DNA of 64,000 nt, taken from contig JAISUR010000037.1 in NCBI GenBank assembly GCA_031271975.1, positions 124,001-188,000 on the forward strand. Direction: 5' to 3'. The notes under the pieces were generated by a model. That model was not told the origin of the DNA. It saw only the letters and a program-made list of their open reading frames with translations, and ran no database searches. Positions 45,559 through 64,000 of the stretch are shown piece after piece. Each line of letters opens with the position of its first letter. Position 1 is the stretch's first letter. This DNA is from Propionibacteriaceae bacterium. GTDB lineage: Bacteria > Actinomycetota > Actinomycetes > Propionibacteriales > Propionibacteriaceae. Made by a program: the position numbers and the translations under genes.

Positions 45559-45605
45559 GGTGCCTCCGTTTTGTTTGAGGGGATGACTAAACGTCCCACC
45601 GCTGT

Positions 45606-47704: not shown

Positions 47705-47708
47705 GCTG

Positions 47709-48437
47709 ATGGCCGCCCGCCGGGCGAGAAACTGGGCCTGGCGTGGGCTGCTGATCGTTCTCGGGGCAGCCTTGGTGGGCTCGCTCGCCGTGATCTGCTG
47801 GCCTGGTTTGGCAAACCGCTCCGAGGCGCTGGCGATTCCGCCCATACCGACGGTGACGCCAACCTACGAGCTTCCCAGCCGCACCGATCCACTGCCAGCG
47901 GGCATTACCGCAGAGCCGCTGCACATCCGGATCCCGCGCATGGAAGTGGAAACCGACGTGGCCCCCTACACGGCTGATGACGCGCGGGCGGGAAAGGACT
48001 GGCTCGGAAATCCTTGCTACCGGGGTAACCGCATCCGCTGCATCGACCCACCCAGATTCGACATCGTCTACCACCAGATCGGCGGTGTGGAAGGCATCCG
48101 GTTCGGCGAGTATCCGGGCCTGGAAACCCTCGGCACGGTCTACATGTATGGGCACTCCGCGGTCAAGCAAAAGGCCGTGTTCAACAATCTCGGAAAACTC
48201 AAGTCGGGCGACGCGATTGAAATCGAGACGCAATACGGCATCCTGGAATACGTGGTTGACAAGGTCATAGACATTCCCAAAGAGCAGTACTCCACTTCCG
48301 AAGAGGTTTGGGAGCAAGTTCCGGGACGCCTGCTGCTGGTGTCGTGCGACCAGTCCGGCGGGTCGTACGGAAACGGGCATGCCAAGAACAACTTGATCGC
48401 CTTCGCGCACGTGACGGGGGCGCGGGCCCTGTCATGA
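47709..48437 (+). CDS. Sortase family transpeptidase with altered active site
   Basis: 242 residues. One N-terminal membrane anchor (~13-32), then a sortase beta barrel. Catalytic His is in YMYGHSAV (H149) and Cys in LLLVSCD (C213). The usual catalytic Arg a few residues later is not visible: the equivalent strand reads HAKNNLIAFA (Lys/Asn). A Cys pair (C103, C111) lies in an insertion. Four bases after the surface-protein gene and overlapping the LCP gene, so the three form a cassette. Confidence 0.85.
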   Translation: MAARRARNWAWRGLLIVLGAALVGSLAVICWPGLANRSEALAIPPIPTVTPTYELPSRTDPLPAGITAEPLHIRIPRMEVETDVAPYTADDARAGKDWLGNPCYRGNRIRCIDPPRFDIVYHQIGGVEGIRFGEYPGLETLGTVYMYGHSAVKQKAVFNNLGKLKSGDAIEIETQYGILEYVVDKVIDIPKEQYSTSEEVWEQVPGRLLLVSCDQSGGSYGNGHAKNNLIAFAHVTGARALS

Positions 48438-49717: not shown

Positions 49718-49732
49718 GTTCTGCTCAAGCGA

Positions 49733-49738
49733 TAGGCT
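49733..49738 (+). promoter_or_regulatory. Possible -10 box, leaderless metallo-hydrolase mRNA
   Basis: TAGGCT ends 7 bases before the GTG at 49746; no Shine-Dalgarno sequence. Same layout as before the clgR-like gene. Confidence 0.4.
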
Positions 49739-49745
49739 TGCCCTC

Positions 49746-50453
49746 GTGTTCTTGGCATCTTTCGTATCCGGCCCCTGGCAGGCCAACTGCTACCTGTTGG
49801 CCGCCGAAGGCTCAACCCAGGCAGTGATCGTCGATCCGGGCATGGAAGCCGCGCCCACGATTCGCAAGGCCGCCGCCGAATACGGCCTGCGGCCCGTCGC
49901 GGTGCTGGCCACGCACGGCCATCTGGACCACGTGGCCGACGCCCGCGAAGTGAGCGAGGAATACCACGTGCCGGTGTGGATCCACTCCGCCGACCGGGAC
50001 ATGCTCGCCGACCCGCTGAGCGGGCTGGGTGGCGATTCGGCCGAGCTGGTGGCTGCGATGTATCCCGGCGGTTTCAGCGAGCCCGCCGAGGTGCTGGAAT
50101 ACGACACGCTGTTGGCTGAAGGCGAGCCGCTGTCCGTCGCCGGTTTGGAGTTCTCCCTGATCCACGCGCCGGGCCACACCCGAGGCTGCGTGCTGCTCAT
50201 GGTCGAATACCCGGGCGGACGTCCGGTTTCGCACCTGGTGTTCTCCGGCGACGTGCTGTTCCAAGGCTCCATCGGACGCACCGACTTGCCCGGCGGCTCG
50301 ATGGACGCGATGCTGCGGACCCTGTCCGGGCCCGTGCTGGGCCTGCCCGACTCGGCTGCGATTCTGCCTGGACACGGCGGCCAGTCGCTGATGGCGGCTG
50401 AACGCGCCAACAACCCGTACCTGCAAGCATCGTTCTTGCGGCGGGAGGTCTGA
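49746..50453 (+). CDS. Metallo-beta-lactamase fold hydrolase (glyoxalase II-like)
   Basis: 235 residues. Motif THGHLDHV near residue 57 supplies the HxHxDH metal ligands, with further ligands in HAPGHTRG, FSGDVLF and LPGHGG. N-terminus WQANCYLLA matches the YciB/GloB-like group that actinobacteria encode before hisS. Substrate is probably a thioester, but the sequence does not show which. GTG 49746 chosen; overlaps hisS by one base. Confidence 0.88.
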   Translation: MFLASFVSGPWQANCYLLAAEGSTQAVIVDPGMEAAPTIRKAAAEYGLRPVAVLATHGHLDHVADAREVSEEYHVPVWIHSADRDMLADPLSGLGGDSAELVAAMYPGGFSEPAEVLEYDTLLAEGEPLSVAGLEFSLIHAPGHTRGCVLLMVEYPGGRPVSHLVFSGDVLFQGSIGRTDLPGGSMDAMLRTLSGPVLGLPDSAAILPGHGGQSLMAAERANNPYLQASFLRREV

Positions 50454-51784
50454 TGGCCCGCGCGAAGCTGTCCGGATTTCCGGAATTTCTGCCTGCGGGC
50501 CGCGTCGTCGAACAGCGGGTGCTGGCCGCGATAGCCGAGACCTTCGAGTTGCACGGTTTCGGATCGATCGAGACCCGGGCCCTGGAGACGATGGAGTCGT
50601 TGACCCGCAAGGGCGAGATCGACAAAGAGGTCTACGCCGTCAAGCGCATTCACGCGGCCGCCGACGAGCCCGCCGAATTCGGCCTGCACTTTGATCTGAC
50701 CGTGCCGTTCGCCCGCTACGTGCTGGAGAACGCGGGCCAGCTGCAATTCCCATTCAGGCGCTACCAGATCCAGAAGGCCTGGCGCGGCGAACGCCCGCAG
50801 GAAGGCCGCTACCGGGAGTTCCTGCAAGCCGACGTCGACGTGGTGGGGCAGGGCTCGCTGGCCGCCCACCACGACGTGGAATTGCCCCTCGTGACGCTCG
50901 CCGCGCTGGAAAAACTGCATGTAGATTTCTCGGTGCCCACGGTCACCATGTCGGTGAACAACCGCAAGCTCTCCGAGGGCTTCTATCGCGGGTTGGGCGT
51001 GGCCGAGCCGATGGCTGTGCTGCAACGCGTGGACAAGCTGGACAAGATCGGGCCGGAGAAAGTCGCAGAACTGCTGCGATCCGAGCTGGGCATGTCGGCC
51101 GCCGCCGCCGCGTCCTGCCTGAAGTTGGCCGAGATCCGCACGCCTGACACCTCCTTCGTGGACCGCGTGCGGGCTATCGGAGTCACCCACCCGCTGCTGG
51201 ACGCCGGCCTGGCCGAGTTGGCCGACGTCGTGGAAGCGGCGGCGAAACTGGTGCCGGGCCGCCTGGTGGCCGACCTGAAGATCGCGCGCGGGCTGGATTA
51301 CTACACCGGCACGGTATATGAGACGGTGATGGACTCGATGGAGTCGATGGGGTCGATATCGTCGGGTGGACGCTACGACTCACTGGCCTCCGATGGCAAG
51401 AACACCTATCCCGGTGTCGGCCTTTCGATCGGGGTCAGCCGGATCTTGGTGCCATTGATCGGGCGCGGCGCGTTGGATGCCTCCCGTCCGGTGCCGAGTT
51501 GCGTGTTGGTCGCCGTGGATTCGGAAGAGACCAGGCTTGCCGCCAACGAAACGGCCGCCAAGCTGCGGGCGCGGGGGATAGCGGCGGAAGTTTCCCCGGA
51601 CGCCGCCAAGTACGGCAAGCAGATCCGCTATGCCGACCGGCGCGGCATCCCGTACGTGTGGTTCTCCCCGGGCCAGGTCAAGGACATCCGCAGCGGGGAG
51701 CAAGTCCCGGCCGATCCGGAAAGCTGGATGCCCGCTGCCGCCGACCTGCGGCCGCGCGTGCTGTCAGCGGGTTCCGGCCGGTGA
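50453..51784 (+). CDS. hisS: Histidyl-tRNA synthetase
   Basis: 443-residue class II synthetase. Motif 1 region near residue 25, FDLTVPFARYV near residue 80, motif 2 RYQIQKAWRGERPQEGRYREF near residue 103, histidine motif IARGLDYYTGTVYE near residue 280 and a C-terminal anticodon domain. HisZ is excluded by the anticodon domain and intact motifs. Together with MBL and aspS forms the usual actinobacterial order. Confidence 0.96.
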   Translation: MARAKLSGFPEFLPAGRVVEQRVLAAIAETFELHGFGSIETRALETMESLTRKGEIDKEVYAVKRIHAAADEPAEFGLHFDLTVPFARYVLENAGQLQFPFRRYQIQKAWRGERPQEGRYREFLQADVDVVGQGSLAAHHDVELPLVTLAALEKLHVDFSVPTVTMSVNNRKLSEGFYRGLGVAEPMAVLQRVDKLDKIGPEKVAELLRSELGMSAAAAASCLKLAEIRTPDTSFVDRVRAIGVTHPLLDAGLAELADVVEAAAKLVPGRLVADLKIARGLDYYTGTVYETVMDSMESMGSISSGGRYDSLASDGKNTYPGVGLSIGVSRILVPLIGRGALDASRPVPSCVLVAVDSEETRLAANETAAKLRARGIAAEVSPDAAKYGKQIRYADRRGIPYVWFSPGQVKDIRSGEQVPADPESWMPAAADLRPRVLSAGSGR

Positions 51785-51820
51785 CACTACAATCTTCAGG
51801 TTGCCTAGGGAAGGAATGAA

Positions 51821-53584
51821 ATGCTGCGGACGCACCTGGCAGGCAAATTGGGAACCGGCGACGTCGGCGCCACCGTGACATTGGCGGGATGGGTGGCCAA
51901 GCGCCGCGACCTCGGCGGGCTCGCCTTCATCGATCTGCGGGATTCCTCCGGGATCGTGCAGGTGGTGATCCGCGACGAGATGCTGGAGGCCTCCGGCGCC
52001 CATTCGCTGCGCAACGAATACTGCATCCAGGTGACTGGGCAAGTCGAGCGGCGCTCGGCCGACACCGTGAACCCGGCGATTCCCACCGGCGAGATCGAGG
52101 TCGCCATCGCGTCGTTGACAGTGCTGAACCCGTCCGCCCCGCTGCCGTTCCAGATCGACGAGCGTACGGCCGTGGGCGAAGAGGCCCGCTTGAAGTACCG
52201 CTATCTCGATTTGCGGCGCCCGGCTCCGGGGGCCGCAATCCGGCTGCGTTCCCAGGTGAACCGCGCCGCCCGCGAAGTGTTGCACGAGCGTGGATTCGTG
52301 GAAATTGAGACTCCCACGATGACGCGGTCCACGCCGGAAGGGGCGCGCGATTTCGTGGTCCCTGCCCGGCTCGCCCCCGGTTGCTGGTACGCCTTGCCGC
52401 AGAGCCCGCAGCTGTTCAAGCAGTTGCTGATGGTGGCCGGCATGGAACGCTACTACCAGATCGCCCGCTGCTACCGCGATGAGGACTTCCGGGCGGACCG
52501 GCAGCCCGAGTTCACCCAGCTCGACATCGAGTTGAGCTTCGTGGACCAGGACGATGTGATCGAGGTCGGCGAAGCGGTGATCAAGGCGGTGTGGGCGCTT
52601 ATCGGCTACGACCTGCCGACGCCGCTGCCGCGCATCAGCTACGCCGAAGCGCTGGACCGCTACGGTTCCGACAAGCCAGATCTGCGGTTCGGGCTCGAAT
52701 TGAAGGAAGTCACCGGTTTCTTCGCCGACACCCCGTTCCGGGTTTTCCAGGCCCCTTACGTGGGCGCGATCGTGATGCCGGGCGGGGCTTCGCAGCCGCG
52801 GCGCACCTTCGACGCTTGGCAGGAGTGGGCCAAGCAGCGCGGGGCGAAAGGTTTGGCGTATGTCACCGTGGGCGAGGAGCTGGGCGGCCCGGTCGCCAAG
52901 AACATCTCCGATGCCGAACGCGCGGGTTTGGCGGCGGCGGTCGGCGCCGCAGCCGGCGACTGCATCTTCTTCGCCGCCGGCCCCAAGAAGAAGTCGCAAG
53001 AACTCCTGGGTGCGGCTCGCGTGGAGATCGCCCGCCGTTTGGGCCTGGTCGACGAGAACGCCTGGAGCTTCCTGTGGGTCGTTGACGCGCCGCTGTTCGA
53101 ACCTGCCGCCGACGCGGTGGCCGCCGGCGACGTGGCGGTCGGCGCCGGAGCTTGGACGGCGGTGCACCACGCCTTCACTTCGCCGAAACCCGAGCACTTG
53201 GAGACCTTCGACACCGACCCGGGCTCGGCGCTGGCGTATGCCTACGACATGGTGTGCAACGGCAACGAAATCGGCGGCGGCTCGATCCGTATCCACCGTC
53301 GCGACGTGCAGGAGCGCGTCTTCAAGGTGATGGGGCTGGGCGCCGACGAGGCCCAGGAGAAATTCGGCTTCCTGCTGGACGCGTTCCAGGTCGGCGCGCC
53401 GCCGCACGGTGGCATCGCTTTCGGCTGGGACCGCATTTGCGCGCTGCTGTCGCGCACTGAGTCGATCCGCGACGTGATCGCCTTCCCCAAGACCGGCGGC
53501 GGCTACGATCCGCTGACTGGGGCGCCGGCGCCGATCACGGACAGACAGCGCAAGGAAGCTGGTATCGACGCGAAACCAGAGTAG
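51821..53584 (+). CDS. aspS: Aspartyl-tRNA synthetase
   Basis: 587 residues. N-terminal OB-fold anticodon domain ([17 protein letters not shown]), motif 2 [21 protein letters not shown] near residue 208, bacterial GAD insertion (~300-420) and motif 3 [15 protein letters not shown] near residue 528. Probably non-discriminating for Asn if no AsnRS exists, which cannot be judged here. Last housekeeping gene before the lipid-type cluster; no terminator is evident after it. Confidence 0.96.
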
Positions 53585-53652
53585 TTATTGCTGGTCAAGT
53601 GAGGTTTCGGAACGCAGCTAAGTTACCGACAATTTGTTTCGCCCCGTAGGTC

Positions 53653-53680
53653 TTGCGCCTTTGAAATGAAAAGGTATGGT
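53653..53680 (+). promoter_or_regulatory. Candidate promoter of the seven-gene cluster
   Basis: TTGCGC (53653-53658) and TATGGT (53675-53680) with a 16-base spacer, in a stretch richer in A and T than its surroundings. The start site would fall near 53687, giving a leader of about 25 bases that includes the GGAGG ribosome-binding site. It is the only clear promoter-like site in the cluster. Confidence 0.45.
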
Positions 53681-53711
53681 AAGCCAAGTAACTCACCCCT
53701 ATGGAGGCTGC

Positions 53712-54611
53712 ATGTCCGCGAGATTGCGTGTCTATCTCGCTGAGATGTATCCAGTGATCCCTCGGTTTGCGTTGGGTTACATCCTATTTTTCGAAATGTA
53801 CTTCCTTGTGCTGCTCACTCACGGCCATGCCGGTTTCGAGTTGGGCGTGGGCGAGGCCGTGGCGGGGTTCACGATCTTCGCTTTCCTGCTGAGCCTGCGC
53901 GTCGCGGATGACCTGAAGGACTACGAAGCGGATCTGGTGCTCTTTCCGGAGCGCCCGCTGCCCGCCGGGAAAGTCTCCAAACGCGATCTGCTGGTGATGC
54001 TGGCCGTCGTCGATACACTGACGGCCGCGGCCAACCTGGTGTTCGTGCGCAACTATCTGTTCTTCGCCCTGTTGGTGGCCTATGGCTTCCTCATGTCGTT
54101 CTGGTTTTTCCAGAAGTACCGCATCCAGCGCAGCTTGCCGTTGGCGCTGGTCACGCACAATCCGGTGCAGTTGGTGATGAACGCGTACGTGATCTCGTTT
54201 GCCTGCGAGCGCTACGGCATCGAGCTGTTCACGGTCAACAACCTGCTGATCTTGTGCACGCTCTACTTCCCGGGCCTGATCTGGGAAATCGCCCGCAAAG
54301 TGCGCGCCCCCGAGGAGGAGACCGAATACACCACCTATTCCAAGTTGTTCGGGGTGCGCAAACCAGTCGTGTTCATCCTGGGAGTCATGGCGCTGGACTT
54401 CGTCACCAGCTCGATCCTCATATATCAGCTCTACCCGTGGGCGGTGGCCACTGTCATAGCGGCCTACGCGTGGCTGGTCTGGATGAGCGTCCGGTTCCTG
54501 CGCGATCCACACCGTTTCAAACTGGTCGACAAGGTGATCGTCTACGACTATCTCGCCGAGGGGTCGATGGTGGTGTTCATCGGCGCGCGGCTGCTCGGGT
54601 TGGGGGTGTGA
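53712..54611 (+). CDS. UbiA-family prenyltransferase-like membrane protein
   Basis: 299 residues with about eight hydrophobic segments. UbiA enzymes join an isoprenyl diphosphate to an aromatic or polar acceptor. The first Asp-rich motif is RVADDLKDYEAD (D67, D70, D74), followed by FPERPLPAGKVSKRDL as in UbiA and archaeal DGGGP synthases. The second motif is changed: WEIARKVRAPEEETEYTTYSK (E192, K196) stands where DxxxD is expected. ATG 53712 has GGAGG 5 bases upstream. First of seven overlapping genes; acceptor unknown. Confidence 0.82.
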   Translation: MSARLRVYLAEMYPVIPRFALGYILFFEMYFLVLLTHGHAGFELGVGEAVAGFTIFAFLLSLRVADDLKDYEADLVLFPERPLPAGKVSKRDLLVMLAVVDTLTAAANLVFVRNYLFFALLVAYGFLMSFWFFQKYRIQRSLPLALVTHNPVQLVMNAYVISFACERYGIELFTVNNLLILCTLYFPGLIWEIARKVRAPEEETEYTTYSKLFGVRKPVVFILGVMALDFVTSSILIYQLYPWAVATVIAAYAWLVWMSVRFLRDPHRFKLVDKVIVYDYLAEGSMVVFIGARLLGLGV

Positions 54612-55195
54612 TGGACTGGCTCGCGGAAATGTACATCACGCTGTTGCCGGGCATGGCGGCGGGTGTCCTGAACATGGTCTGGTGCAAGGCGCTGCGTTTC
54701 CCAGCTCCGATCGACGGCGGGCGGAACTGGTGCGACGGGCGCCGTGTCTTCGGGGACAACAAGACGTGGAAAGGCCTGATCGGAATGGTGGTGCTGGGCT
54801 GTGCGTGTTCGGCCGCTTGGGGGGCGGCCTGCGCCGCCAACGGCTACTTGGGCCAGCACAACTACTTCTACCAGGGCCCCTTCTCCAACACCTTCGCGTA
54901 CAACGCCGGCGTGGGTGCCGCCATCGGCCTGGCCTACGCCGTCTTCGAACTCCCCAACTCATTCTTGAAACGCCGCCTGGCGGTGGAGCCGGGCAAGCCG
55001 GCCCCGCGGGCCTGGCGAATTCTGTTCACCTGCCTGGACCAAGCCGACTCGGTAGTGGGCATGGTTTTCGTGGTGAGTGTGTTCCATCCGTTGTCATTGG
55101 GCTATTTTTGGGCCTACGTCGCGGTCGGCTCGGCCACGCACGCGGTCTTGAACGTCTTGTTGTTCCTCGCGGGTTTAAGGAGGCAGCCACTGTGA
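54611..55195 (+). CDS. CDP-archaeol synthase-like protein (CarS/DUF46)
   Basis: 194-residue membrane protein. CarS uses CTP to activate an unsaturated archaeal ether phospholipid. Matching motifs: PIDGG (33-37), DGRRVFGDNKTWKG (42-55), FELPNSFLKRR (112-122) and DQADSVVG (143-150), in place of CarS DQLDFVxG. About four or five hydrophobic segments. It is much shorter than CdsA and lacks the CdsA signature, so it is not the ordinary CDP-diacylglycerol synthase. ATG overlaps the UbiA stop (TGATG). Confidence 0.85.
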   Translation: MDWLAEMYITLLPGMAAGVLNMVWCKALRFPAPIDGGRNWCDGRRVFGDNKTWKGLIGMVVLGCACSAAWGAACAANGYLGQHNYFYQGPFSNTFAYNAGVGAAIGLAYAVFELPNSFLKRRLAVEPGKPAPRAWRILFTCLDQADSVVGMVFVVSVFHPLSLGYFWAYVAVGSATHAVLNVLLFLAGLRRQPL

Positions 55196-57441
55196 GTTTG
55201 GTCGAGTTGATCGCCGCCGGGCCGGCGGAGCATGTGGGCGCGAAGGCCGCCAACTTGGGCATCCTGGCGCGGGCCGGTTTTCCAGTCCCGCCGGGCTGGG
55301 TCGTACCCGTGGGGGCTCAAGCTACCCCCGAGTGGTTCGCGGATCTTCCCGAGGGGCGCTATGCCGTGCGGTCATCGGGCCAACACGAGGATCTGGCCGG
55401 GCTGTCCTTTGCCGGCCAGTACAAGACGCTGCTCAACGTGGGCAAAGACAAGCTGGCCGAGGCGGTTCGCGAATGCCAAGCTTCGGCCGACGCCGGCCCG
55501 GCGGCCGCCTATCTCGCCCAGCACGGCATGGAGCGCGGCTCCATGGCGGTCATCGTACAGCAGATGGTCGACGCCGAGTTTGCCGGGGTGGCTTTCACGC
55601 TCAATCCGCTCACCGGGGCGGACACCGAACTCGTGGTGGAATACACCGAGGGGTTGGGAGAGGCGCTGGTCTCGGGCCAAGTGGAGCCGCTGCGGGCCAG
55701 TTGTGATTGGGCGGAGCCGACGGCGCTGGCGATGCCAGGTGTGAGCGGCGAGATCGCCCAAGAACTGGCTGGTGAGTGCGCCCGCGCGCAGCGTTTGTTC
55801 GGCTTTCCCCTCGACATCGAGTTTGCCGTTGACGGCCACCTGTGGATACTGCAAGCCCGCCCGATCACACGCGTCACCTACACCGGACTGGACGACATCT
55901 GGACCACGGCCGACTTCAAAGACGGCGGCGTTTCGGCCCAAGCCTGCAAACAGTACATGTGGAGCCTGTACGAGTACATCTGGGAACACTCGCTGGCCGA
56001 CTTCTTGGTCTCGTCGCGGCTGATCGAACCGGAGCGGCTGCGCAAGCTGGGGCGCATGTTCTACGGCAGGCCGTATTGGAACCTGTCCGTCGTCAAGGAA
56101 GTGATGTCGCGCGTGCCCGGATACTGCGAGCGCGATTTCGACGAGGAGTTCGGCATCCAGGTGGCCTATGACGGCCCGGGCACCAAGACGCGGATCAGCC
56201 CGGCGTCGCTGCTGCGGTTGGTTCCGGCGGCGTTGGCACAGCGGAAATTCCTGGCGGAACGCGAGCGGGATGCGGGCAAACTTGCCGAGCGGATCAGGTC
56301 CCTGGTCGCGGCGCGACTGGAAGAGTTGCCCACGCTGGTCGACCGGGCGAGCCTGGAACGTGGTTTTCGCCTGGTCACCAAGGAGAATTACCTGCTGAGC
56401 GAGTCGACGTACTTTTGGCAGATCTTCCTGAACACCATCCACCAGTCGCTGTTCAAGGATTCGCTCGGCAAGGCGGTCGACCTCCAGACGTATCTGCGGC
56501 TCCTCGGCGGTCTGGACGACGTATCCCACTTGCGGCCGTTCCAAGATCTGTGGGAACTCAGCCGCAAACTGCGGGGCGAGGGGCGCGAACCTGTCTTGGA
56601 AGACGTCGCGGCGCACATCGAACGCTATGGATACCACTCTGACAAGGAGCTCGACGTCGGCTATCCGAACTATTGGGAGCAGCCGGACGTGGTGTTGGGT
56701 AAGTTGAAACAGCTTTGCGCGCTCGACTCCGCGCACGCCCCCGACGTCGGCCAAGCCGCGCAGCGGCAGGCGTACCGCGAAGCGCTGGCCAGCGTGGGGA
56801 AGCCGCGGCTCGTGCGCAAAGTCGAACGCGTGCGCAAGCTGCTGTGGTGGCGGGAAGAGTTCCGCGACCTGTCCACCATGATGTATGACGTGATCCGGCG
56901 CTATACCGTCGCGCTGGCCAACATTTACGCCGCGGAGGGGATTATCGCCCGCGACGACATCTGGCACCTTCCGGTGGCCGAGTTGTGGCGTTTCGGGGAG
57001 GATCGAGATGTGGACCGCCTGCGGGCGATAGGGGACCGCAACCGCCGCTACTACGAGGCGTATCGCAACTATGTTTCCGAGAACGAAATCGGCCCGCGGT
57101 TCCAGGCCCAGCGGGTCGCCGCCGCCGCAGACCTGTCCGGCATTGGCTGCTCCGTGGGCCAAGTGACGGGCACGGCGCGCGTCATCGATGGCTTGGAAGA
57201 CATGGGACGGTTGCGGGAAGGCGACATCTTGGTCACCCGCTTCACCGATACCGGGTGGACCGAGAAGTTCGCCATGGTGGCCGCGGTGGTGACCGAATAT
57301 GGTGGAATGCTGTGCCACGCGGCGATCGTGTCGCGCGAATACGGCGTGCCCTGCGTAGTGGCCGTGAAGGGGGCTACGGCCGCCATCGCCGATGGGCAAG
57401 TGATCACCGTAGACGGGGGAACGGGCCAGGTGATCCGATGA
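55192..57441 (+). CDS. PEP synthase / rifampin phosphotransferase-like dikinase
   Basis: 749 residues. N-terminal ATP-grasp (PPDK_N) domain: YAVRSSGQHEDLAGLSFAGQ near residue 46, VQQMVDAEFAGVAFTLNP near residue 123, DIEFAVDGHLWILQARPITR near residue 212. Long middle domain (~240-640) of unknown specificity. C-terminal swivelling domain with the phospho-accepting His in GGMLCHAAIVSREYG (H709). The order ATP-grasp, middle, His domain is that of rifampin phosphotransferase, which phosphorylates a hydroxyl; PEP synthase has a different C-terminal barrel. I infer phosphorylation of a lipid or polyprenol. GTG 55192 overlaps the CarS stop. Confidence 0.85.
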   Translation: MSLVELIAAGPAEHVGAKAANLGILARAGFPVPPGWVVPVGAQATPEWFADLPEGRYAVRSSGQHEDLAGLSFAGQYKTLLNVGKDKLAEAVRECQASADAGPAAAYLAQHGMERGSMAVIVQQMVDAEFAGVAFTLNPLTGADTELVVEYTEGLGEALVSGQVEPLRASCDWAEPTALAMPGVSGEIAQELAGECARAQRLFGFPLDIEFAVDGHLWILQARPITRVTYTGLDDIWTTADFKDGGVSAQACKQYMWSLYEYIWEHSLADFLVSSRLIEPERLRKLGRMFYGRPYWNLSVVKEVMSRVPGYCERDFDEEFGIQVAYDGPGTKTRISPASLLRLVPAALAQRKFLAERERDAGKLAERIRSLVAARLEELPTLVDRASLERGFRLVTKENYLLSESTYFWQIFLNTIHQSLFKDSLGKAVDLQTYLRLLGGLDDVSHLRPFQDLWELSRKLRGEGREPVLEDVAAHIERYGYHSDKELDVGYPNYWEQPDVVLGKLKQLCALDSAHAPDVGQAAQRQAYREALASVGKPRLVRKVERVRKLLWWREEFRDLSTMMYDVIRRYTVALANIYAAEGIIARDDIWHLPVAELWRFGEDRDVDRLRAIGDRNRRYYEAYRNYVSENEIGPRFQAQRVAAAADLSGIGCSVGQVTGTARVIDGLEDMGRLREGDILVTRFTDTGWTEKFAMVAAVVTEYGGMLCHAAIVSREYGVPCVVAVKGATAAIADGQVITVDGGTGQVIR

Positions 57442-58019
57442 TTCCGGTTTTCCACCGCTCCAACGCGGTCACCTATTTGGGCGTTGTCGTCGCCGCCGTC
57501 GGCGTGGTTTTCTCTTCCGTGGCGGTGCTGTGCCTGATGGCCGCGGGCATGTGTGACTTGCTCGACGGCTGGTTCGCCCGCCGTTTTGAACGCACCGAGG
57601 AGATGCAGGCACTGGGCATCCAGTTGGATTCACTGTCCGACACGGTGGGTTTTGTGCTGCTTCCGGTGGCCATCTTCATGACCTCGGCTCCGCAACCGGT
57701 GTTGGCCGTCGCGGTAATCGCCGGATACACCTTGGCGGCCGTGAGCCGACTGGCCCTGTTCAACGTGCGGGCCGAGGGCTGTGCCCAGGGGTATCGCGGC
57801 TTGCCGACGACGTACGCGGCGCTGATCCTGCCTCTGGCTTGGTTGGCCGCGAGGGTCGTCGGCTGGCCGACGGACTGGGTGTTCGGATCGGCTATGGCGC
57901 TGCTCGCGATTGGTTTCATCGTGGATATCCACATGCCGAAGCCGCCGGCCAAGGCGATCCCAGCTTTCGGCATTCTGGCCTTGGCGCTGGCTGTTGCTGT
58001 TATCTGGGTGGGCCCATGA
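57438..58019 (+). CDS. CDP-alcohol phosphatidyltransferase, PssA-like
   Basis: 193-residue membrane protein. The family motif is D40-x2-D43-G-x2-A-R48-x11-G60-x3-D64-x3-D68, three residues longer between AR and G than the common x8 form; RTEEMQALGIQLDSLSD resembles the phosphatidylserine synthase subgroup of some Firmicutes. It should displace CMP from a CDP-lipid with a small alcohol; a downstream decarboxylase points to serine. ATG overlaps the dikinase stop by 4 bases. Confidence 0.85.
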   Translation: MIPVFHRSNAVTYLGVVVAAVGVVFSSVAVLCLMAAGMCDLLDGWFARRFERTEEMQALGIQLDSLSDTVGFVLLPVAIFMTSAPQPVLAVAVIAGYTLAAVSRLALFNVRAEGCAQGYRGLPTTYAALILPLAWLAARVVGWPTDWVFGSAMALLAIGFIVDIHMPKPPAKAIPAFGILALALAVAVIWVGP

Positions 58020-58786
58020 CCGAATACGGTTCCGCCGGTCTGAAGTGGCTCTATGGCCCGCTGCTGCCCGCCACCAACGCGCTGTTCGCCCGTGCTTGGT
58101 TCTCGCGTCTGCTGGCCTGGCCGTCCACCTGGAAGCGGTCCGCGGCGTCGATCGCGCCCTTCGCCGCGAAGTGGGGCATCGACCTGGAGGAATACGAGCC
58201 CGGCTGGACGACTTTTGACGAGTTCTTCACCCGGAGTTTCCGCTCCGGCGCCCGGCCGGTCGATCCAGATCCGGACACGCTGGTCGCGCCCGCGGACTCT
58301 CGAATGTCGGTCTATGACCTGGGGGTGGGGACCTTCACTGCGAAGGGCTTCGAATACACGGCGTCATCCATCGTTGGACGTGACTGCGCGGCGCCTGCGG
58401 CGGCGGTCTTCCGGCTGCGCGTGGACGATTGCCACCGCTACTGTTTTCCGGCTGACGGTGAAGTCCTGGAGACGTATGAAATCCCCGGTCGGCTGCACAC
58501 CGTGGGCCCATATTCGGCCGGGATAGTGCCGGTGCTGGCCGAGAACTACCGTATGGTGACCGTTTTCGAGACCGCGCGCTTTGGAACCTTGCACATCGTG
58601 GAGGTGGGCGCGATGCTCGTGGGTCGGATCACGAACCATCCGGTGCGCTGGGCCCGGCGCGGGCAGGAGAAGGGCTTCTTCGGATATGGCGGCTCCACGA
58701 TCGTCATCCTGGGCGACTTCACGGCTAAACCCGCGGCCACTGAGCAGCGCGTGCTGCTGGGCACGGCGTTCGGGAGGGCCAGGTGA
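58016..58786 (+). CDS. Phosphatidylserine decarboxylase-type proenzyme
   Basis: 256 residues. Pyruvoyl-dependent decarboxylase made as a proenzyme. Catalytic residues are recognisable: Asp in APADSRM (D94), His in DDCHRYCFPADG (H140) and the self-cleavage Ser in YGGST (S227), where most PSDs have LGST. N-terminus has a hydrophobic patch (WLYGPLLPATNALFARAWF). It would turn a phosphatidylserine-like lipid into the ethanolamine form. ATG overlaps the previous stop (ATGA). Confidence 0.88.
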   Translation: MTEYGSAGLKWLYGPLLPATNALFARAWFSRLLAWPSTWKRSAASIAPFAAKWGIDLEEYEPGWTTFDEFFTRSFRSGARPVDPDPDTLVAPADSRMSVYDLGVGTFTAKGFEYTASSIVGRDCAAPAAAVFRLRVDDCHRYCFPADGEVLETYEIPGRLHTVGPYSAGIVPVLAENYRMVTVFETARFGTLHIVEVGAMLVGRITNHPVRWARRGQEKGFFGYGGSTIVILGDFTAKPAATEQRVLLGTAFGRAR

Positions 58787-60192
58787 GGCTCGACAACTCC
58801 AACATTGGTGAAAACTACCCCGGAGTGTGCTCTCCGTTGACATGCTCGTTCGCGCAGGAGGTGTACCGGCTGATTTTCGCCAGGCTGGCCGAGCGCCTCG
58901 GGGCCGACGCGGTGCCCGAAGTGGCCGCCGCCGTGGCGCACATGGCTGAAGCCCATGAGGGCCGCATGTACTACCGCGTGGACAACTGGTACCGCTTGTT
59001 GCAGTTGCTGCCAGGACGGCGGTGGCTGATCCCGATTTGGAAACGCTCGCTGGCTGTGCAGGTCCAGGAACTGCCGCCGCCGCTGGCCGTGCCGTTCGCG
59101 GCGCGGCTGCGGGTGGTGTGGCGGCTGTTGCGCGCGTGGTTTGCCACGCCCGGTTTGATGTCGGCGTTGGAAGCGGATTTTGCGGCGGCCAAGCGGGATT
59201 TCGACGCCAGCTTCCCGGCCGATTCCGAAGGTTTGCGGGAGCTGTACTTCCGAATCCGGGCCGGCGTCTTGCGCAATTGGGACATCACGCTCGTCAACGA
59301 TCTGCGCGCGTTCGTGGCCACGGACATCGCTCGGCGCCTGGGCCGCCCGATCGGCGGAGTCGAGCTGGCCGCGATGGCACCGGTGCGGGCCTTGGCCGAC
59401 CTGGCGCGGACGTTGGCTCCCTGCGAGCGGGCGGCGTTGGCCGCAGGCGTGTTGCCCGAGCGCGCAAACGTCTTCATAGCCGAGTTCGGCGACCGCGGCC
59501 CCGCGGAATTGAAGCTGGAGTCGGCTACCTTCCGCACCCACCCCGACACGCTGATTCCGGCCCTGCTGGGTGCGGCGCCAGTCCCAGCACCGCCGAGTTC
59601 GCGGCCCGGCCGGGCGCGCCAGGCGGTGGCGTTCCGCGAGGCCTCCCGGTTGAACCGTGCCCGGCTGTTCGGCATGGTGCGATCCATCGTGCGCCTGCTC
59701 GGTGAGCAGTTGGCGGCCACCGGCCAGCTCGCCCAAGCCGAAGACGTGTTCTATCTGACGCTGCCGGAGTTGGGTTTGGCCGACGGGCCGGCCGGCGGGG
59801 CGCTGGCACCCACCGTCGCCCAGCGCAAAGCTGAGTGGGCGCGCTACACGGCCGAGCCGGCGTCCCCGCCCATGGATGACGAGTTGGCCGGGACGGCGTG
59901 CTCCGCGGGTGTGGTGGAGGCCGAGGTCGTGGTCGTCCTGGATCCGGCCGCGGCACCCGACGTGGCTGGAAAGATCGTGGTGGCGCAAGCCACCGACCCG
60001 GGCTGGGTTTTCCTGCTGTCGCGTGCGGCCGGTGTCATCGCTGAGCGGGGATCGCTGTTGTCGCACGTGGCGATCATCGCCCGCGAGTTGGGTTTGCCCG
60101 CCGTGGTCGGAGTGCCGAACGCCACCCGGCTGCTGCGCGGCGGGGACCGGGTGCGTATTGATGGTGCGGCGGGGACGGTGGAACGTGTCTGA
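58783..60192 (+). CDS. PEP-utiliser-like protein without ATP-grasp domain
   Basis: 469 residues. Begins with DNSNIGENYPGVCSPLTCSF, a motif found at the start of the middle domain of rifampin-phosphotransferase-like proteins; later FIAEFGDRGPAELKLES near residue 230 and DVFYLTLPELG near residue 322 match that domain. It ends with the swivelling domain, phospho-His in GSLLSHVAIIARELG (H428). The ATP-grasp half is missing, so it may depend on the dikinase two genes upstream. GTG 58783 overlaps the decarboxylase stop. Confidence 0.8.
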   Translation: MRLDNSNIGENYPGVCSPLTCSFAQEVYRLIFARLAERLGADAVPEVAAAVAHMAEAHEGRMYYRVDNWYRLLQLLPGRRWLIPIWKRSLAVQVQELPPPLAVPFAARLRVVWRLLRAWFATPGLMSALEADFAAAKRDFDASFPADSEGLRELYFRIRAGVLRNWDITLVNDLRAFVATDIARRLGRPIGGVELAAMAPVRALADLARTLAPCERAALAAGVLPERANVFIAEFGDRGPAELKLESATFRTHPDTLIPALLGAAPVPAPPSSRPGRARQAVAFREASRLNRARLFGMVRSIVRLLGEQLAATGQLAQAEDVFYLTLPELGLADGPAGGALAPTVAQRKAEWARYTAEPASPPMDDELAGTACSAGVVEAEVVVVLDPAAAPDVAGKIVVAQATDPGWVFLLSRAAGVIAERGSLLSHVAIIARELGLPAVVGVPNATRLLRGGDRVRIDGAAGTVERV

Positions 60193-61117
60193 GTTGGACG
60201 ATTTCACCTCCCGGAGGCATCCGCTGAGCCGATACTGCCGGGTTATCGCCCACGGCCGGCCCGGAGCGCGTTGCGGGTTGACCATTGCCGGGTCCACGGC
60301 GTATCTCGGGTTCTTCGAGTGCCCCGACGACCAGGCGGTCGCCGACGAGTTGTTCGGCTGGGCCCGGGAGACCGCCGGGCGCGCGGGCTGCCGCGAGATT
60401 CTGGGCCCGGTAGATGCCAGCTTCTGGAACCGCTACCGCATGAAGACCGACGCGTTCGACCAATCCGCGTATTTTGGGGAACCCCGCAATCCGGACTACT
60501 ACCCGCGATTGTGGGAGCGCGCCGGGTTCAGTGTTGTCCAGCGTTACTCGTCCACGATCTTCCCGGTGGTTCCGCGCGGCTACCGCAATCCGCGCCTGAC
60601 GTCCCGACTGGAATGGGCGCGCGACAACGGGTTCCGGGTCGAGTCTTTGCGCATGCGCGAGTGGGACGACGTGTTTCCCCGCGTGCACGCCTTGATCATG
60701 GAGCTTTACGCGGACATGCCCGTGTTCCAACCACTGGACTTGGATGGTTTCGCCGCGGTGTTCGGCAAGCTGCGGCTGGCGGCCGACCCTGAGTTGATAA
60801 CCCTAGCCTGGCAAGGGTCGGAGTTGGCGGCGTTCTCCATAGTGTTGCCCGACTTCGCGGACCTCGCCAACCCACTGCGCTTGCTGTGGCGCAAACACCA
60901 TTACCGGCGCGTGGTGGCGGCATATATGGGCGCGGCGGTGCCCGGTCTGGGATCGGCGCTGGCCGCCCGCCTGCTGGCTCAGGCGGCGGAAAGAGGCCTG
61001 GGGTTTGTCGGTTCGCTGATGGCCGACGGCAAGCCCACGGCGCAGTACGCCAACGATCTGGTCGCCGCCCGCCAGCACTACGCGCTCTACGGTTCATCCT
61101 GGAACTACACCGTGTAG
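60185..61117 (+). CDS. GNAT-fold acyltransferase-like protein
   Basis: 310 residues. GTG 60185 overlaps the preceding stop by 8 bases. The first half has GPVDASFWNRYRM and EPRNPDYYPRLWERAGFSVV, a pattern shared by a group of long GNAT-like proteins (GP...; N-x-x-YY..L.E..GF). The second half carries VPGLGSALAARLLAQAAERGL, a candidate acyl-CoA pyrophosphate loop. Substrate not known; N- or O-acylation of the lipid product is possible. Last gene of the cluster. Confidence 0.7.
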   Translation: MSELDDFTSRRHPLSRYCRVIAHGRPGARCGLTIAGSTAYLGFFECPDDQAVADELFGWARETAGRAGCREILGPVDASFWNRYRMKTDAFDQSAYFGEPRNPDYYPRLWERAGFSVVQRYSSTIFPVVPRGYRNPRLTSRLEWARDNGFRVESLRMREWDDVFPRVHALIMELYADMPVFQPLDLDGFAAVFGKLRLAADPELITLAWQGSELAAFSIVLPDFADLANPLRLLWRKHHYRRVVAAYMGAAVPGLGSALAARLLAQAAERGLGFVGSLMADGKPTAQYANDLVAARQHYALYGSSWNYTV

Positions 61118-61126
61118 TACACCTGG

Positions 61127-61154
61127 GGACTATCCGGGTCTATGACCGTAGTCC
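61127..61154 (+). terminator. Hairpin ending the seven-gene cluster
   Basis: GGACTA / TAGTCC form a perfect outer stem of 6 bases with a partly paired interior (CGGGTC-TAT-GACCG), beginning 9 bases after the acyltransferase stop and followed by AATGTTGTTG. Likely separates the cluster from the sigma gene. Confidence 0.45.
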
Positions 61155-61194
61155 AATGTTGTTGTCCGGGGGTGTGTTCAGGGTCGAAATGGGG

Positions 61195-61206
61195 TGTCAA
61201 CTGACA
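61195..61206. promoter_or_regulatory. Palindrome in the sigma-factor promoter region
   Basis: TGTCA-AC-TGACA, perfect 5-base arms, 52 bases upstream of the sigma gene start, with a further TGACA at 61237. Could be an operator. No clear -35/-10 pair could be assigned. Confidence 0.3.
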
Positions 61207-61257
61207 CATTTCACGGTCAAAACACGTTGTACTAGTGACAAGTGAAAGGAGCGGGAC

Positions 61258-62220
61258 ATGAACGCCACCACCCATCGCAGCCGGATCAACGACGGTATCG
61301 ACGGCAAGGACTCCGTCGGCCTGTACCTGGAGGAGATCGCCAAGACCCCCTTGCTGAGCGCCTCGGAAGAGGTCCAGTTGGCTAAGCGAATCGAGGCTGG
61401 GCTGTTTGCCCAAGAGATCCTGGACTCCGGCTTGGCCGAGGACGACTTCCCGATCGCCGCCTCCCGCGAAGAACTCGAGATCATCGCCCGCGAAGGCGAC
61501 GCGGCTATGAAGCGCTTCGTGGCCGCCAACCTGCGGCTCGTCGTTTCAGTCGCCCGCAAGTATGGCCGGTCCCAGCTTCCGCTGCTCGACTTGGTGCAGG
61601 AAGGCAACACCGGCCTGATCCGCGCCGTCGAGAAGTTCGACTACACCAAAGGCTTCAAGTTCTCCACCTATGCCACCTGGTGGGTGCGGCAGTCCATCTC
61701 GCGCGGCATCGCGCAGCAGGGCCGCATCGTCCGCCTGCCCGTGCACGTCGCCGAGCAGGTCAACCAGGTCTCCGCGGTCCGCCGCACGCTGGAGCGCAAG
61801 CTCGGCCGCGAGCCGGAACTGTTCGAAGTCGCCGACGAGCTCGGCATGCCGGTCGACCAGATCGTCGACCTGCTCCGCCTCGCCCGCGACCACGTGTCGC
61901 TGGACGCCCCTATTGAGGAGAACGGCGACACCGCGCTGGGAGATCTGCTCGCCATGCAATCCGCGCCCTCGCCGGATGACGTGGTGATGGACGCGGAGGA
62001 CCGGGCCCGCCTCGACGACATGCTCGCCGGCTTGGACGCACGTTCCGCCGACGTCATCCGCCGCCGCTATGGCCTGCTGGACGGCCGCCAGGCCAAACTG
62101 GCCGACATCGCCGAAGTGTGGGGGATCACCGCCGAGCGGGTCCGCCAGATCGAGCGTCAGGCCATCGCGAAGCTTCGCTCCGGAAAGTTGTCGCCCGCCA
62201 AGGTGGGCGCCGCAGCCTGA
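61258..62220 (+). CDS. RNA polymerase sigma factor, group 2 (SigB/HrdB-type)
   Basis: 320 residues. Region 1.2 DSVGLYLEEIAKTPLLSASE near residue 20, region 2 NLRLVVSVARKYGRS and YATWWVRQSISRGIAQQGR near residue 138, region 3, and region 4.2 TAERVRQIERQAIAKLRSG near residue 290. Its short N-terminus lacks the long acidic region 1.1 of the main actinobacterial sigma, so it is more likely the SigB-like group 2 factor. AAAGGAG lies 7 bases before the ATG. Confidence 0.92.
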   Translation: MNATTHRSRINDGIDGKDSVGLYLEEIAKTPLLSASEEVQLAKRIEAGLFAQEILDSGLAEDDFPIAASREELEIIAREGDAAMKRFVAANLRLVVSVARKYGRSQLPLLDLVQEGNTGLIRAVEKFDYTKGFKFSTYATWWVRQSISRGIAQQGRIVRLPVHVAEQVNQVSAVRRTLERKLGREPELFEVADELGMPVDQIVDLLRLARDHVSLDAPIEENGDTALGDLLAMQSAPSPDDVVMDAEDRARLDDMLAGLDARSADVIRRRYGLLDGRQAKLADIAEVWGITAERVRQIERQAIAKLRSGKLSPAKVGAAA

Positions 62221-62247
62221 GCCGCCGCCAACCAACAACCCACCAGG

Positions 62248-62270
62248 CCCTCCGGTTTTCCGGAGGGTTT
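62248..62270 (+). terminator. Intrinsic terminator after the sigma gene
   Basis: Perfect 8-base stem CCCTCCGG / CCGGAGGG with a TTTT loop, followed by TTTCG, 28 bases after the sigma stop. Convergent with the peptidase gene. Confidence 0.75.
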
Positions 62271-62332
62271 CGTGGTTTCGGCACGCCGGGCCACGTCCAA
62301 AGATCCCGAAACGGTTGGCAGCGGGCCGCCGG

Positions 62333-64000
62333 TCACACGGTTGTGTGGGCGATCAGCCAGGCCAATTCGAAAGCGGCGTCGCGCCAAGCCGCGTAGCGGC
62401 CCGACACGCCGGAGTGCCCGGCGCCCTCCACCTTGAAGTGGATTTGCGTCTCGGGTGCGGCGTGCCGCAGCGCGGCCACCCACTTGGCCGGCTCAGTGAT
62501 CTCAACGCGGGTGTCGTTGATCCCCGCGGTGACCAGCAGCGGGGGATAGTGCTGCGGGCGGACGTTTTCATAGGGCGTGTAGGACTTCATCAGCCGGTAG
62601 ATCTGCGGATCGTGCAGCGGATCGCCCCATTCCTCCCACTCGGTCACGGTGAGCGGCAGGGACGGATCCAAGATGGTGTTCAACGCGTCGACGAAGGGGA
62701 CGGCAGCGTGCGCCGCGCCGAAAGCCGCCGGAGTTTGGTTCAACACGGCCCCGATCAACAGCCCGCCCGCGCTGCCGCCGGCGATGGCCAGGCGGTCGGC
62801 GGTGGTGTAACCGGCGGCGACCAGGTGCCGCGCGCAGGCGGTGAAATCGGCGAAGGTGTTGGGTTTGGCGGCCATCCGCCCGCCTTCGTACCAAGCGCGG
62901 CCCAGTTCTCCGCCGCCGCGCACGTGCGCGATGGCGTAGCTGTAGCCCCGGTCCAGCAGGCTGAGCCGCAGGATGGAGAACGACGGCGAGATCGAAATCT
63001 CGTAGGCGCCATACCCGTAGAGCAGGCAGCCGCCTGGCTTGGTATCGGCCCGGCGCACCAGCGAAATGGGGACCTGCGTGCCGTCTGGAGACGTCGCCCA
63101 CAGGCGTTCTTGGACGTAATCGCCTCGCCGGTAGACGCCGTTGTAGTCGAGCACCGGCCGTTGTTTGAGCAGCACCTTCTCGCCGGTCTCGAGCATGTAG
63201 TCGAAGACCTGCTCGGGCGTCACCAGCGACTGGTATGTGAGCCGTATCCGGTCGGTGCCGGGGTCTTCGGCGCCGTCGGCTTCGAGGGTGAACAGCGGCT
63301 CGTCCCATTCGATTTCGGTGAAGCCGTCCTTGCCGACCGCGACCCGGGTGAGCCCTTCGCGCCGGTAGGAGACGACCAGCGCCGAGTCGTAGGCGGACAC
63401 GCCCAGCAGGCGCGTGCCAGGCACGTGCCCGATGAGGGTGTGGTAGGAAGTTGGGTCGGCGACGCTGGCCCGGGCCAAGGCGAAATCCGGCCCGTCCAAG
63501 TTGTGCAGGATGTAGGCGTCGTCGCCCAAGACTTCAAGTTCGTACTCCACCGACTCGCGGCGGCCCCAAAACGACCGCATGGCCGCACCGTCGAAGAGCC
63601 AGCATTCGCTGGTGTTCTTTGACCCGGCCGTGATGATGACGCGGCGGCGGTCCCGCGACTCATCGACGCTCAGCCAGAAACGCTCGTCGGTCTCGTGGTG
63701 CAGCAGCGTGTCGGCGCCGTCGCGGCTGTGGAAGAACACCCGGTCGGTGCGCCAGGCCGCGTCGGTGCGCAGGTAGCAATAGCCGGTGTTGCCCAGCCAC
63801 GCTCCGCCCGCCGCGACATCGGTTATGGGCTCGCTGGGCCGGCCCCCGAGGGTCAGGAAATACAGGTCGTAGTGCTCGTCGCCGCTGTAGTCGACCGAGT
63901 AGGCCAACTGGTTTCCGTCCGGGGAAATGTCGAGGGTCCCCAGCGCGAAGAAGCCATGTCCGTCGGCTTCCGCGTTGGCGTCCAGCAGCAGTTCTTCGCC
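62333..64000 (-). CDS. ptrB: Oligopeptidase B-type S9 peptidase, 5' end missing
   Basis: The frame is open to the window edge; 556 C-terminal residues are present. The beta-propeller domain precedes an alpha/beta-hydrolase domain with the Ser nucleophile in AGGSAGGLL, Asp in TAGINDTRVE and His in EGAGHSGVSG. At the edge it reads DANAEADGHGFFALG and DISPDGNQLAYS, characteristic of oligopeptidase B (prolyl oligopeptidase family S9A). It should cut short peptides after Arg or Lys in the cytosol. The start codon lies outside the window. Confidence 0.9.
   Translation of the reverse strand, partial: GEELLLDANAEADGHGFFALGTLDISPDGNQLAYSVDYSGDEHYDLYFLTLGGRPSEPITDVAAGGAWLGNTGYCYLRTDAAWRTDRVFFHSRDGADTLLHHETDERFWLSVDESRDRRRVIITAGSKNTSECWLFDGAAMRSFWGRRESVEYELEVLGDDAYILHNLDGPDFALARASVADPTSYHTLIGHVPGTRLLGVSAYDSALVVSYRREGLTRVAVGKDGFTEIEWDEPLFTLEADGAEDPGTDRIRLTYQSLVTPEQVFDYMLETGEKVLLKQRPVLDYNGVYRRGDYVQERLWATSPDGTQVPISLVRRADTKPGGCLLYGYGAYEISISPSFSILRLSLLDRGYSYAIAHVRGGGELGRAWYEGGRMAAKPNTFADFTACARHLVAAGYTTADRLAIAGGSAGGLLIGAVLNQTPAAFGAAHAAVPFVDALNTILDPSLPLTVTEWEEWGDPLHDPQIYRLMKSYTPYENVRPQHYPPLLVTAGINDTRVEITEPAKWVAALRHAAPETQIHFKVEGAGHSGVSGRYAAWRDAAFELAWLIAHTTV

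Follow-up and report, generated by a model that had tools for sequence, protein, structure and literature searches.

A cassette of seven genes found in a Propionibacteriaceae bacterium would, at what we judge to be about an even chance, form a dedicated route, parallel to CDP-diacylglycerol metabolism, to an aminophospholipid built on a hydrophobic moiety other than diacylglycerol. The seven genes follow one another on the + strand and fill positions 53712-61117 of the window, that is, of the whole 64,000-nucleotide stretch of contig JAISUR010000037.1 analyzed here (window genome of 2.70 Mb in 49 contigs). They encode a UbiA-like membrane protein, a CarS-like cytidylyltransferase, a dikinase of the rifampin phosphotransferase (RPH) type (DIK), a PssA-like CDP-alcohol phosphatidyltransferase, a PSD-type decarboxylase, a second dikinase devoid of its ATP-grasp domain (HIS2), and a GNAT-like protein. 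Successive genes overlap by 1, 4, 4, 4, 4, and 8 bases, exactly as a first-pass annotation of this DNA had described (seven same-strand genes with overlaps of 1-8 bases). Each enzyme belongs to a known family and the whole is of the kind of the CDP-lipid head-group pathways.

The same genes are found together well beyond the window. When GTDB contigs were scanned with a UbiA alignment and two peptide patterns, which gives counts that are a lower bound, at least seven loci came back, in Propionibacteriaceae (two), Micrococcales, Bifidobacteriaceae, Peptococcaceae, Clostridiales Family XIII, and Bacillota. Fourteen loci of this type, hereafter type 1, were read, namely the window, L017-L023, and L062-L067 (L015 and L016 duplicate L017 and L018), five being from Actinobacteria and nine from Bacillota; L018, L019, and L021 (codes Nt197 and Th196) are reported to derive from the guts of higher termites (PMC7024585). 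UbiA, CarS, DIK, PssA, PSD, and HIS2 occur together in all 14, and GNAT in 12, since it was not found in L021 and its place in L066 would fall off the end of the contig; the copy of L017 is cut by a contig end. Four gene orders exist among these loci: the order of the window is that of four other actinobacterial loci, seven of the nine Bacillota loci follow CarS-DIK-PssA-PSD-UbiA-HIS2(-GNAT), some of them with small genes in between, and L021 and L063 display two further orders. This recurrence of the genes in 14 loci bears out the earlier proposal that the genes form a unit and are not chance neighbors, and the cassette is more than a chance grouping.

Furthermore, the six core proteins have diverged together. 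Their distance matrices correlate in all 15 pairs, with r values of 0.54-0.88 equaled in none of 2000 permutations each, and all six trees part Actinobacteria from Bacillota, with ultrafast bootstrap values of 95 for UbiA, 100 for CarS, 99 for PssA, 84 for PSD, 100 for DIK, and 100 for HIS2, some inner branchings being weakly supported. The flanks behave otherwise: in an all-against-all comparison of 14 loci (12 of type 1, L017 and L064 being left out, and two of a second type, type 2, described below), the sole recurrent neighbor is an AMP-binding ligase, present in L022, L063, L067, and both type 2 loci compared, and three other pairs of neighbors shared by two loci look unrelated.

The spread of the cassette is patchy. 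Within the genus and order, CarS occurs in one of 41 genomes, that of the window. At E <= 0.001, the NCBIfam prenyltransferase model NF010118, which the window UbiA matches, has matches in 10 of 396 Actinomycetota genomes. All ten stay below the cut-off, and one alone is strong, the window genome at 336 bits, the next scoring 43. The window UbiA itself is matched in three of 198 genomes of the family, the other two belonging to another genus. In the class of G612, the genome of L023 (presumably Clostridia), UbiA matches at E <= 0.001 are found in 13 of 391 genomes, seven of them strong (385-491 bits, G612 included), three at 56-83 bits, and three (G811, G966, and G682) at 19-27 bits. Such a distribution resembles that of secondary-metabolite clusters, as do the compactness of the cassette and its unrelated flanks, and the product might be, instead of a membrane lipid, a prenylated natural product, secreted or soluble, that bears a phosphoethanolamine group. 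We regard this as distinctly unlikely, since no gene apart from the ligase recurs in the loci compared, and thus no conserved transporter, regulator, or carrier protein, and since the CarS and PssA families are known from membrane lipids.

The head-group chemistry is best anchored by CarS. The window protein matches Pfam PF01864 (CarS-like) at 52.6 bits (cut-off 22) with no match to PF01148 (CdsA), which rules out an ordinary CdsA variant, and its profile has a single clear relative among solved structures, the CDP-archaeol synthase 5GUF (E 3e-11); the choice of a CarS homolog over a cdsA variant in the first-pass annotation is thereby upheld. The motifs G-x2-K-T-x-K-G, ELPNSF-x-KRR, and DQ-x-DS are present in all 14 type 1 loci. 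The score against the archaeal equivalog NF003114 is 74.3 bits, under its cut-off of 148, and by these profiles the protein is CarS-like and not an archaeal ortholog. The PssA-like protein matches PF01066 (CDP-OH_P_transf) at 41 bits (cut-off 22), TIGR00473 (pssA) at 60 bits, under the cut-off of 107, and two NCBIfam archaetidylserine synthase models at 55-56 bits, below cut-off; the CDP-alcohol transferase motif D-x2-D-G...G-x3-D-x3-D occurs in all 14 proteins, and the predicted substrate is serine because the PSD gene is adjacent. PSD matches PF02666 (PS_Dcarbxylase) at 138 bits and carries the self-cleavage motif G-[GA]-S-[ST] in all 14 type 1 loci. Profiles and residues thus support, at the level of the family, the chemistry predicted for CarS, PssA, and PSD.

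DIK matches PPDK_N and PEP-utilizers in Pfam with no PEP/pyruvate barrel domain listed, and HIS2 matches PEP-utilizers (84.6 bits) with no PPDK_N. Profiles built from 14 DIK and 17 HIS2 sequences, the latter spanning type 1 and type 2, have as best PDB matches 5FBS, 5HV1, and 5HV2 (E about 1e-109 for DIK), which are deposited as PEP synthase. 5FBS is described as the RPH of Listeria, in which the passage of phosphate onto the hydroxyl of rifampin requires an Arg-Glu pair (PMC4844700). PEP synthase or PPDK identity was rejected for DIK, as no PEP/pyruvate barrel is listed and RPH is the best PDB match. The alignment places K22, R117, T136, and H825 of RPH at K18, R60, T79, and H709 of DIK, where K18, R60, and H709 are invariant in all 14 sequences and T79 is Thr or Ser, and R666-E667 of RPH at R554-E555 of DIK and R285-E286 of HIS2. 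The Arg-Glu pair and the swivel His are invariant in all 14 DIK and all 17 HIS2. Given the RPH match and this pair, DIK and HIS2 are expected to be RPH-type dikinases that phosphorylate hydroxyls, which agrees with the earlier suggestion of a dikinase acting on an alcohol; the second His-domain protein seen in the first-pass annotation is indeed present and is better described as a dikinase without its ATP-grasp domain. DIK shares with RPH the ATP-grasp domain, the substrate-binding linker, the C-terminal swivel His, and the catalytic residues. It differs in that the cassette dikinases are embedded in a lipid gene cluster, and in that the stretch separating the ATP-grasp domain (profile positions 11-254) from the C-terminal part (478-805) gave no alignment, so its substrate probably differs from that of RPH. 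In a tree of 449 columns, DIK stands apart from HIS2 (support 1.000) and the type 2 dikinases lie beside HIS2 (0.989); among the 17 loci read, DIK is found only together with CarS.

UbiA and GNAT are too divergent for Pfam, and their assignments, which rest on the profiles of type 2 homologs and on AlphaFold models, are correspondingly putative. The window UbiA scores 337 bits against NF010118, under the cut-off of 443, and has no Pfam match at E <= 1, PF01040 included. It bears the motifs R-x-A-D-D-x-K-D-x3-D, the first Asp motif, kept in all 14 type 1 loci, and E-I-x-R-K-x-R-A-P. Its type 2 homolog in L068 does reach PF01040 (36.4 bits for a cut-off of 34.2), and hhalign relates type 1 to type 2 UbiA at 99.5%; the AlphaFold model is all-helical with a mean pLDDT of 80.3. 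The match to the EboC model is weak (18 bits). Likewise, the window GNAT-like protein has no match in Pfam, and among six type 1 orthologs three score 18.8, 14.2, and 20.2 bits against PF00583 (cut-off 20.7) and three show no GNAT match. The type 2 homologs match Pfam GNAT at 39.7 and 47 bits, hhalign relates the two sets at 99.5%, and the model of the window protein has a mean pLDDT of 79.6. The order of helices and strands in both models fits the assignments. In L019, the intact GNAT gene is followed about 1 kb downstream by a second, partial copy (19213-19563; 127 aligned residues, 38% to the window protein).

Three further clusters, designated type 2 (L068, L069, and L070, Table 1), shed light on how the cassette is built. 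They encode UbiA, a full HIS2-type dikinase, GNAT, the AMP-binding ligase, a DUF3419 protein (225 bits in L068 for a cut-off of 28), and a membrane protein of about 445 aa, and no match to CarS, PssA, or PSD was found in them; their single dikinase is closer to HIS2 than to DIK. The membrane protein, which has no Pfam or NCBIfam match, is putatively phytol/dolichol kinase-like, a label to which no database match was found; its homology to CarS was rejected (hhalign 0.1%). Type 2 loci keep UbiA-HIS2-GNAT(-ligase) and differ in the rest, which suggests, at the level of gene content, a backbone block and an exchangeable head-group block, the latter being DIK-CarS-PssA-PSD in type 1. The earlier idea of one pathway of seven genes therefore stands as to the grouping of the genes, which are better read as two blocks. 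Both are physically tied in L020, where PSD is fused to a full HIS2 in a single frame of 1315 aa (14756-18700; PSD, ATP-grasp, swivel-His dikinase).

The DUF3419 protein, which has no PDB match at E <= 1, may point to betaine lipids. BtaA is reported to make diacylglycerol-O-homoserine by attaching homoserine to diacylglycerol, and a betaine lipid synthase of an alga carries the DUF3419 annotation (PMC10685587). In type 2 clusters, a protein of this family takes the place of the phospho head-group block of type 1. Unlike known betaine lipid synthesis, no BtaB-type methyltransferase was recognized by eye in the open reading frame lists of the three loci, and the backbone genes are UbiA, a dikinase, and GNAT. 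Type 2 clusters are possibly an unrecognized betaine-like lipid cluster in their own right. In L069, UbiA appears as two overlapping short frames (9086-10079) facing one frame of 305 aa in L070, probably a frameshift or an assembly error.

Eight cassette genomes were then surveyed as a whole, those of the window (G000), G586, G598, and L019-L023, most of which are metagenome-assembled genomes or multi-contig assemblies. GGGP synthase (PF01884) is over cut-off in none of the eight and in five of 14 control genomes, with sub-cut-off matches of about 50 residues in G000 and G586; a standard archaeal lipid is therefore unlikely. Fe-ADH_2, the family of glycerol-1-phosphate dehydrogenase, is over cut-off in six of the eight and in 13 of 14 controls, and the best matches of six genomes were classified as GldA (two), Fe-ADH (one), and AroB (three), none reaching the glycerol-1-phosphate dehydrogenase cut-off; this classification covers the single best match of every genome but G586 and G609, the window genome holding four weaker matches beyond it. 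An isoprenoid ether lipid on sn-glycerol-1-phosphate, of true archaeal type, would account for UbiA, CarS, PssA, and PSD, whose families correspond to the four steps that end the archaeal pathway (those of DGGGP synthase, CarS, and archaetidylserine synthase and decarboxylase), and for the scores obtained with the archaetidylserine synthase models. Facing the results on GGGP synthase and on glycerol-1-phosphate dehydrogenase, a UbiA that scores just 15-17 bits against two geranylgeranylglycerol-phosphate geranylgeranyltransferase models, and a dikinase step foreign to the archaeal pathway, it is very improbable and close to refuted, in line with the caution of the first-pass annotation that such a lipid was not shown.

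The same survey bears on the cell's ordinary phospholipids. A CdsA-family protein (PF01148), separate from CarS, is over cut-off in all eight genomes, its frame in the genome of L020 holding one stop; PF02666 has one match per genome, that of the cassette; and CDP-alcohol transferases number 2-5, that of the cassette included. The first-pass annotation had suggested looking for ordinary cdsA, pssA, and psd genes elsewhere in the genome; a CdsA-family gene is there, and no second PSD. In these genomes, the decarboxylase of the cassette is thus without a competitor, and CarS has a CdsA-family enzyme beside it. PssA and PSD could use CDP-diacylglycerol from CdsA to make ordinary phosphatidylethanolamine, the other genes being passengers or modifiers of this lipid. 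PssA and PSD belong to the families of phosphatidylethanolamine synthesis, the sole PSD could be the cell's supply of it, and CdsA is reported to be able to replace CarS (PMC7852524), so that substrate walls may be low. This explanation, which we hold to be quite unlikely, leaves CarS, two dikinases, UbiA, and GNAT without a role despite their co-occurrence in the type 1 loci, and it sits poorly with the co-divergence of the six core proteins and with a CdsA-family gene already present in each of the eight genomes.

The main rival to a dedicated lipid route is isoprenoid salvage, in which DIK and HIS2 would act in series as isoprenol kinase and isoprenyl-phosphate kinase to supply UbiA with prenyl diphosphate, and CarS, PssA, and PSD would complete a lipid that owes its phosphate to another source, such as a phosphorylated acceptor. 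Two hydroxyl-type dikinases do adjoin UbiA, and the type 2 clusters, which have no DIK, have the membrane protein to which we attach a kinase-like label. One or two polyprenyl synthase matches are however found in each of the eight genomes, so that a salvage supply is not required, and DIK goes with CarS, PssA, and PSD in all 14 type 1 loci, all four being missing from the three type 2 loci. We deem salvage unlikely.

From gene content, conservation, and catalytic residues, we infer the substrates, the order of the steps, the trans-phosphorylation, and the product of the dedicated route as follows. Block A (UbiA, HIS2, and GNAT, with an acyl-CoA-ligase-like protein in some Bacillota) would build a lipid alcohol: UbiA would prenylate a small polar acceptor, HIS2 would phosphorylate a hydroxyl of the acceptor or of an intermediate, and GNAT would add an acyl group. 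Block B (DIK, CarS, PssA, and PSD) would add the head group: DIK would pass the beta-phosphate of ATP via His709 to the lipid alcohol, CarS would turn the lipid phosphate into a CDP-lipid, the PssA-like enzyme would exchange CMP for serine, and PSD would decarboxylate the serine head group to ethanolamine. In the window, HIS2 would probably take its phosphoryl group from the ATP-grasp domain of DIK, in the manner of a two-component dikinase. Taken as a whole, the interpretation of the first-pass annotation is partly supported.

The truncation of HIS2 is at the origin of this last proposal. The ATP-grasp domain is kept in nine of 14 type 1 loci and in all three type 2 loci (the Pfam match being checked in L020 and L023), with its nucleotide-binding residues retained apart from an aligned Lys missing in one of 12 (L020). 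It is absent from the window, L017, L018, L019, and L021, where HIS2 starts 3-12 residues before a DNSN motif (three in the window). In the dikinase tree, L020, with its domain intact, is excluded from the group formed by the four truncated Actinobacteria (0.999). L021 falls outside the clade of Actinobacteria (0.991) and joins Bacillota HIS2 at 0.372 in this tree, but at 100 in the tree built from HIS2. These positions are most simply explained by two losses, and the domain has thus probably disappeared twice. No stand-alone PPDK_N (ATP-grasp) frame over cut-off was found in the five genomes with a truncated HIS2. In four of these, the PPDK_N frames are limited to DIK and a second one, 921-1029 aa long, which from its length would be PPDK. 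The window genome holds more (G000:C17:11461-12150): besides DIK, it has frames of 899 aa and 852 aa plus a sub-cut-off partial match of 228 aa, and no third frame exists in the other four. The simplest inference is that the ATP-grasp domain of DIK probably serves the window HIS2 in trans. Two-component dikinases with the ATP-grasp domain on a separate chain are described, namely HpeHI, CreHI, and PpsAB (PMC12167813). Window HIS2, like HpeH in that account, has His and substrate domains without ATP-grasp, but no separate ATP-grasp protein is over cut-off and the only ATP-grasp domain of the cassette lies inside DIK.

Several observations weigh against a dedicated route as drawn here. The usual second motif of UbiA proteins is Asp-rich. 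In the cassette, a pattern search finds E-[IV]-x-R-K-x-R at this place in 12 of the 14 type 1 loci, a motif that is not Asp-rich, and the profile of the window UbiA has no match among solved structures at E <= 1, so that its chemistry may differ. No GNAT gene was found in L021, and acylation is therefore not universal. PssA and PSD score under the cut-offs of bacterial and archaeal equivalogs alike. As CdsA is reported to be able to replace CarS, the coexistence of two CDP-lipid enzymes does not by itself imply that their pools are kept apart. The 852-aa frame and the 228-aa partial match of the window genome make another phosphoryl donor possible, and the fragmented state of most assemblies renders the absences provisional.

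Among the closest known systems, the archaeal head-group pathway has four enzyme families in common with the cassette, as well as the logical sequence of CDP activation, serine addition, and decarboxylation (PMC9385802). The cassette genomes differ from it by having no GGGP synthase over cut-off and no glycerol-1-phosphate dehydrogenase among the classified matches, the cassette adds two RPH-type dikinases and GNAT, and its CarS, PssA, PSD, and UbiA fall under the NCBIfam cut-offs of the models that they match. Candidate archaeal-lipid pathways of the FCB group likewise involve bacterial genomes with archaeal-type lipid genes, but the assembled genomes in question are reported to have GGGP and DGGGP synthases with no CarS detected, whereas the cassette genomes have CarS and no GGGP synthase over cut-off (PMC7852524). 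The ebo cluster also holds a UbiA-type gene (EboC/UbiA-297) in a conserved bacterial cluster, yet the other six cassette genes match no family described for eboA, eboB, eboD, or eboE (PMC9235831). Judged by titles and the beginnings of abstracts, no paper among the open-access matches listed describes either type 1 or type 2 clusters.

In the window, the cassette is bounded by a putative aspS and a putative sigma-70-type factor gene (Table 1). No gene like aspS is common to the flanks of the other loci compared, and the sigma-70-type factor has matches in 28 of 30 genomes of the genus at E <= 1e-100, with no cassette gene beside it in the six other genus genomes read at that site (L087-L092). 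A clean insertion site was rejected, as the gene order around the sigma factor in these six genomes differs from that of the window and no empty site can be drawn. In all six, a putative peptidase gene (named by reading) lies upstream of the sigma-factor gene on the same strand; in the window (61258-63907), the two are convergent, and the cassette thus sits at a rearranged junction. The UbiA gene has a GC content of 0.592, as compared with 0.638-0.696 in the other cassette genes and the neighbors measured, and a normal third-position GC. An Rfam search of 44000-64000 gave no match; over 53400-61500, a promoter scan found none (1.1 in shuffles) and terminator-like sites numbered eight (5.8 in shuffles). 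Anti-phage defense was discarded, no PADLOC match being obtained for any of the seven proteins. Plasmid records contain no UbiA or CarS match, and weak GNAT matches in 13 records, none covering 80%.

Table 1. Coordinates of the cassette genes, their neighbors, and the type 2 clusters
Feature	Position	Strand	Basis or remark
UbiA-type membrane prenyltransferase-like protein, 299 aa	53712..54611	+	NCBIfam NF010118 below cut-off, hhalign, AlphaFold
CarS-like CTP:lipid-phosphate cytidylyltransferase, 194 aa	54611..55195	+	PF01864
DIK, RPH-type dikinase, 749 aa (ATP-grasp, substrate-binding linker, C-terminal swivel His709)	55192..57441	+	PPDK_N, PEP-utilizers
PssA-like CDP-alcohol phosphatidyltransferase, 193 aa	57438..58019	+	PF01066
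PSD-type pyruvoyl decarboxylase, 256 aa, GGST cleavage motif	58016..58786	+	PF02666
HIS2, RPH-type dikinase without ATP-grasp domain, 469 aa, swivel His428	58783..60192	+	PEP-utilizers
GNAT-like acyltransferase, divergent, 310 aa, probably two GNAT-like halves	60185..61117	+	hhalign, AlphaFold
aspS, upstream boundary, outside cassette	51821..53584	+	Name from reading of translation
Sigma-70-type factor gene, downstream boundary, outside cassette	61258..62220	+	Name from reading of translation
Type 2 clusters	L068:8405-16363; L069:6519-15169; L070:6032-14569		Bacillota, same class as G612; L069 and L070 near-identical

Putting type 1 and type 2 together, we tentatively propose, with less confidence than for the dedicated route itself and as something that may well not hold in full, a new class of bacterial membrane lipids, in which a prenylated and acylated alcohol made by UbiA, dikinase, and GNAT would receive interchangeably a phosphoethanolamine group through a dikinase and CarS or a homoserine-type ether through a BtaA-family protein, along with two RPH-type dikinases sharing one ATP-grasp domain in trans. 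The discrimination of archaeal from bacterial substrates by CarS and CdsA has been described as upholding the lipid divide (PMC9385802), although CdsA is reported to be able to stand in for CarS (PMC7852524). A bacterial cassette in which CarS comes with a kinase and head-group enzymes to itself, in cells that retain a CdsA-family gene, would mean that two phospholipid pathways operate side by side in the membrane of some bacteria, a matter of direct relevance to this divide. It would also give a role in lipid synthesis to the large and mostly unassigned family of RPH-type dikinases, and the truncations of HIS2 offer a natural experiment in the splitting of a swivel-domain enzyme.

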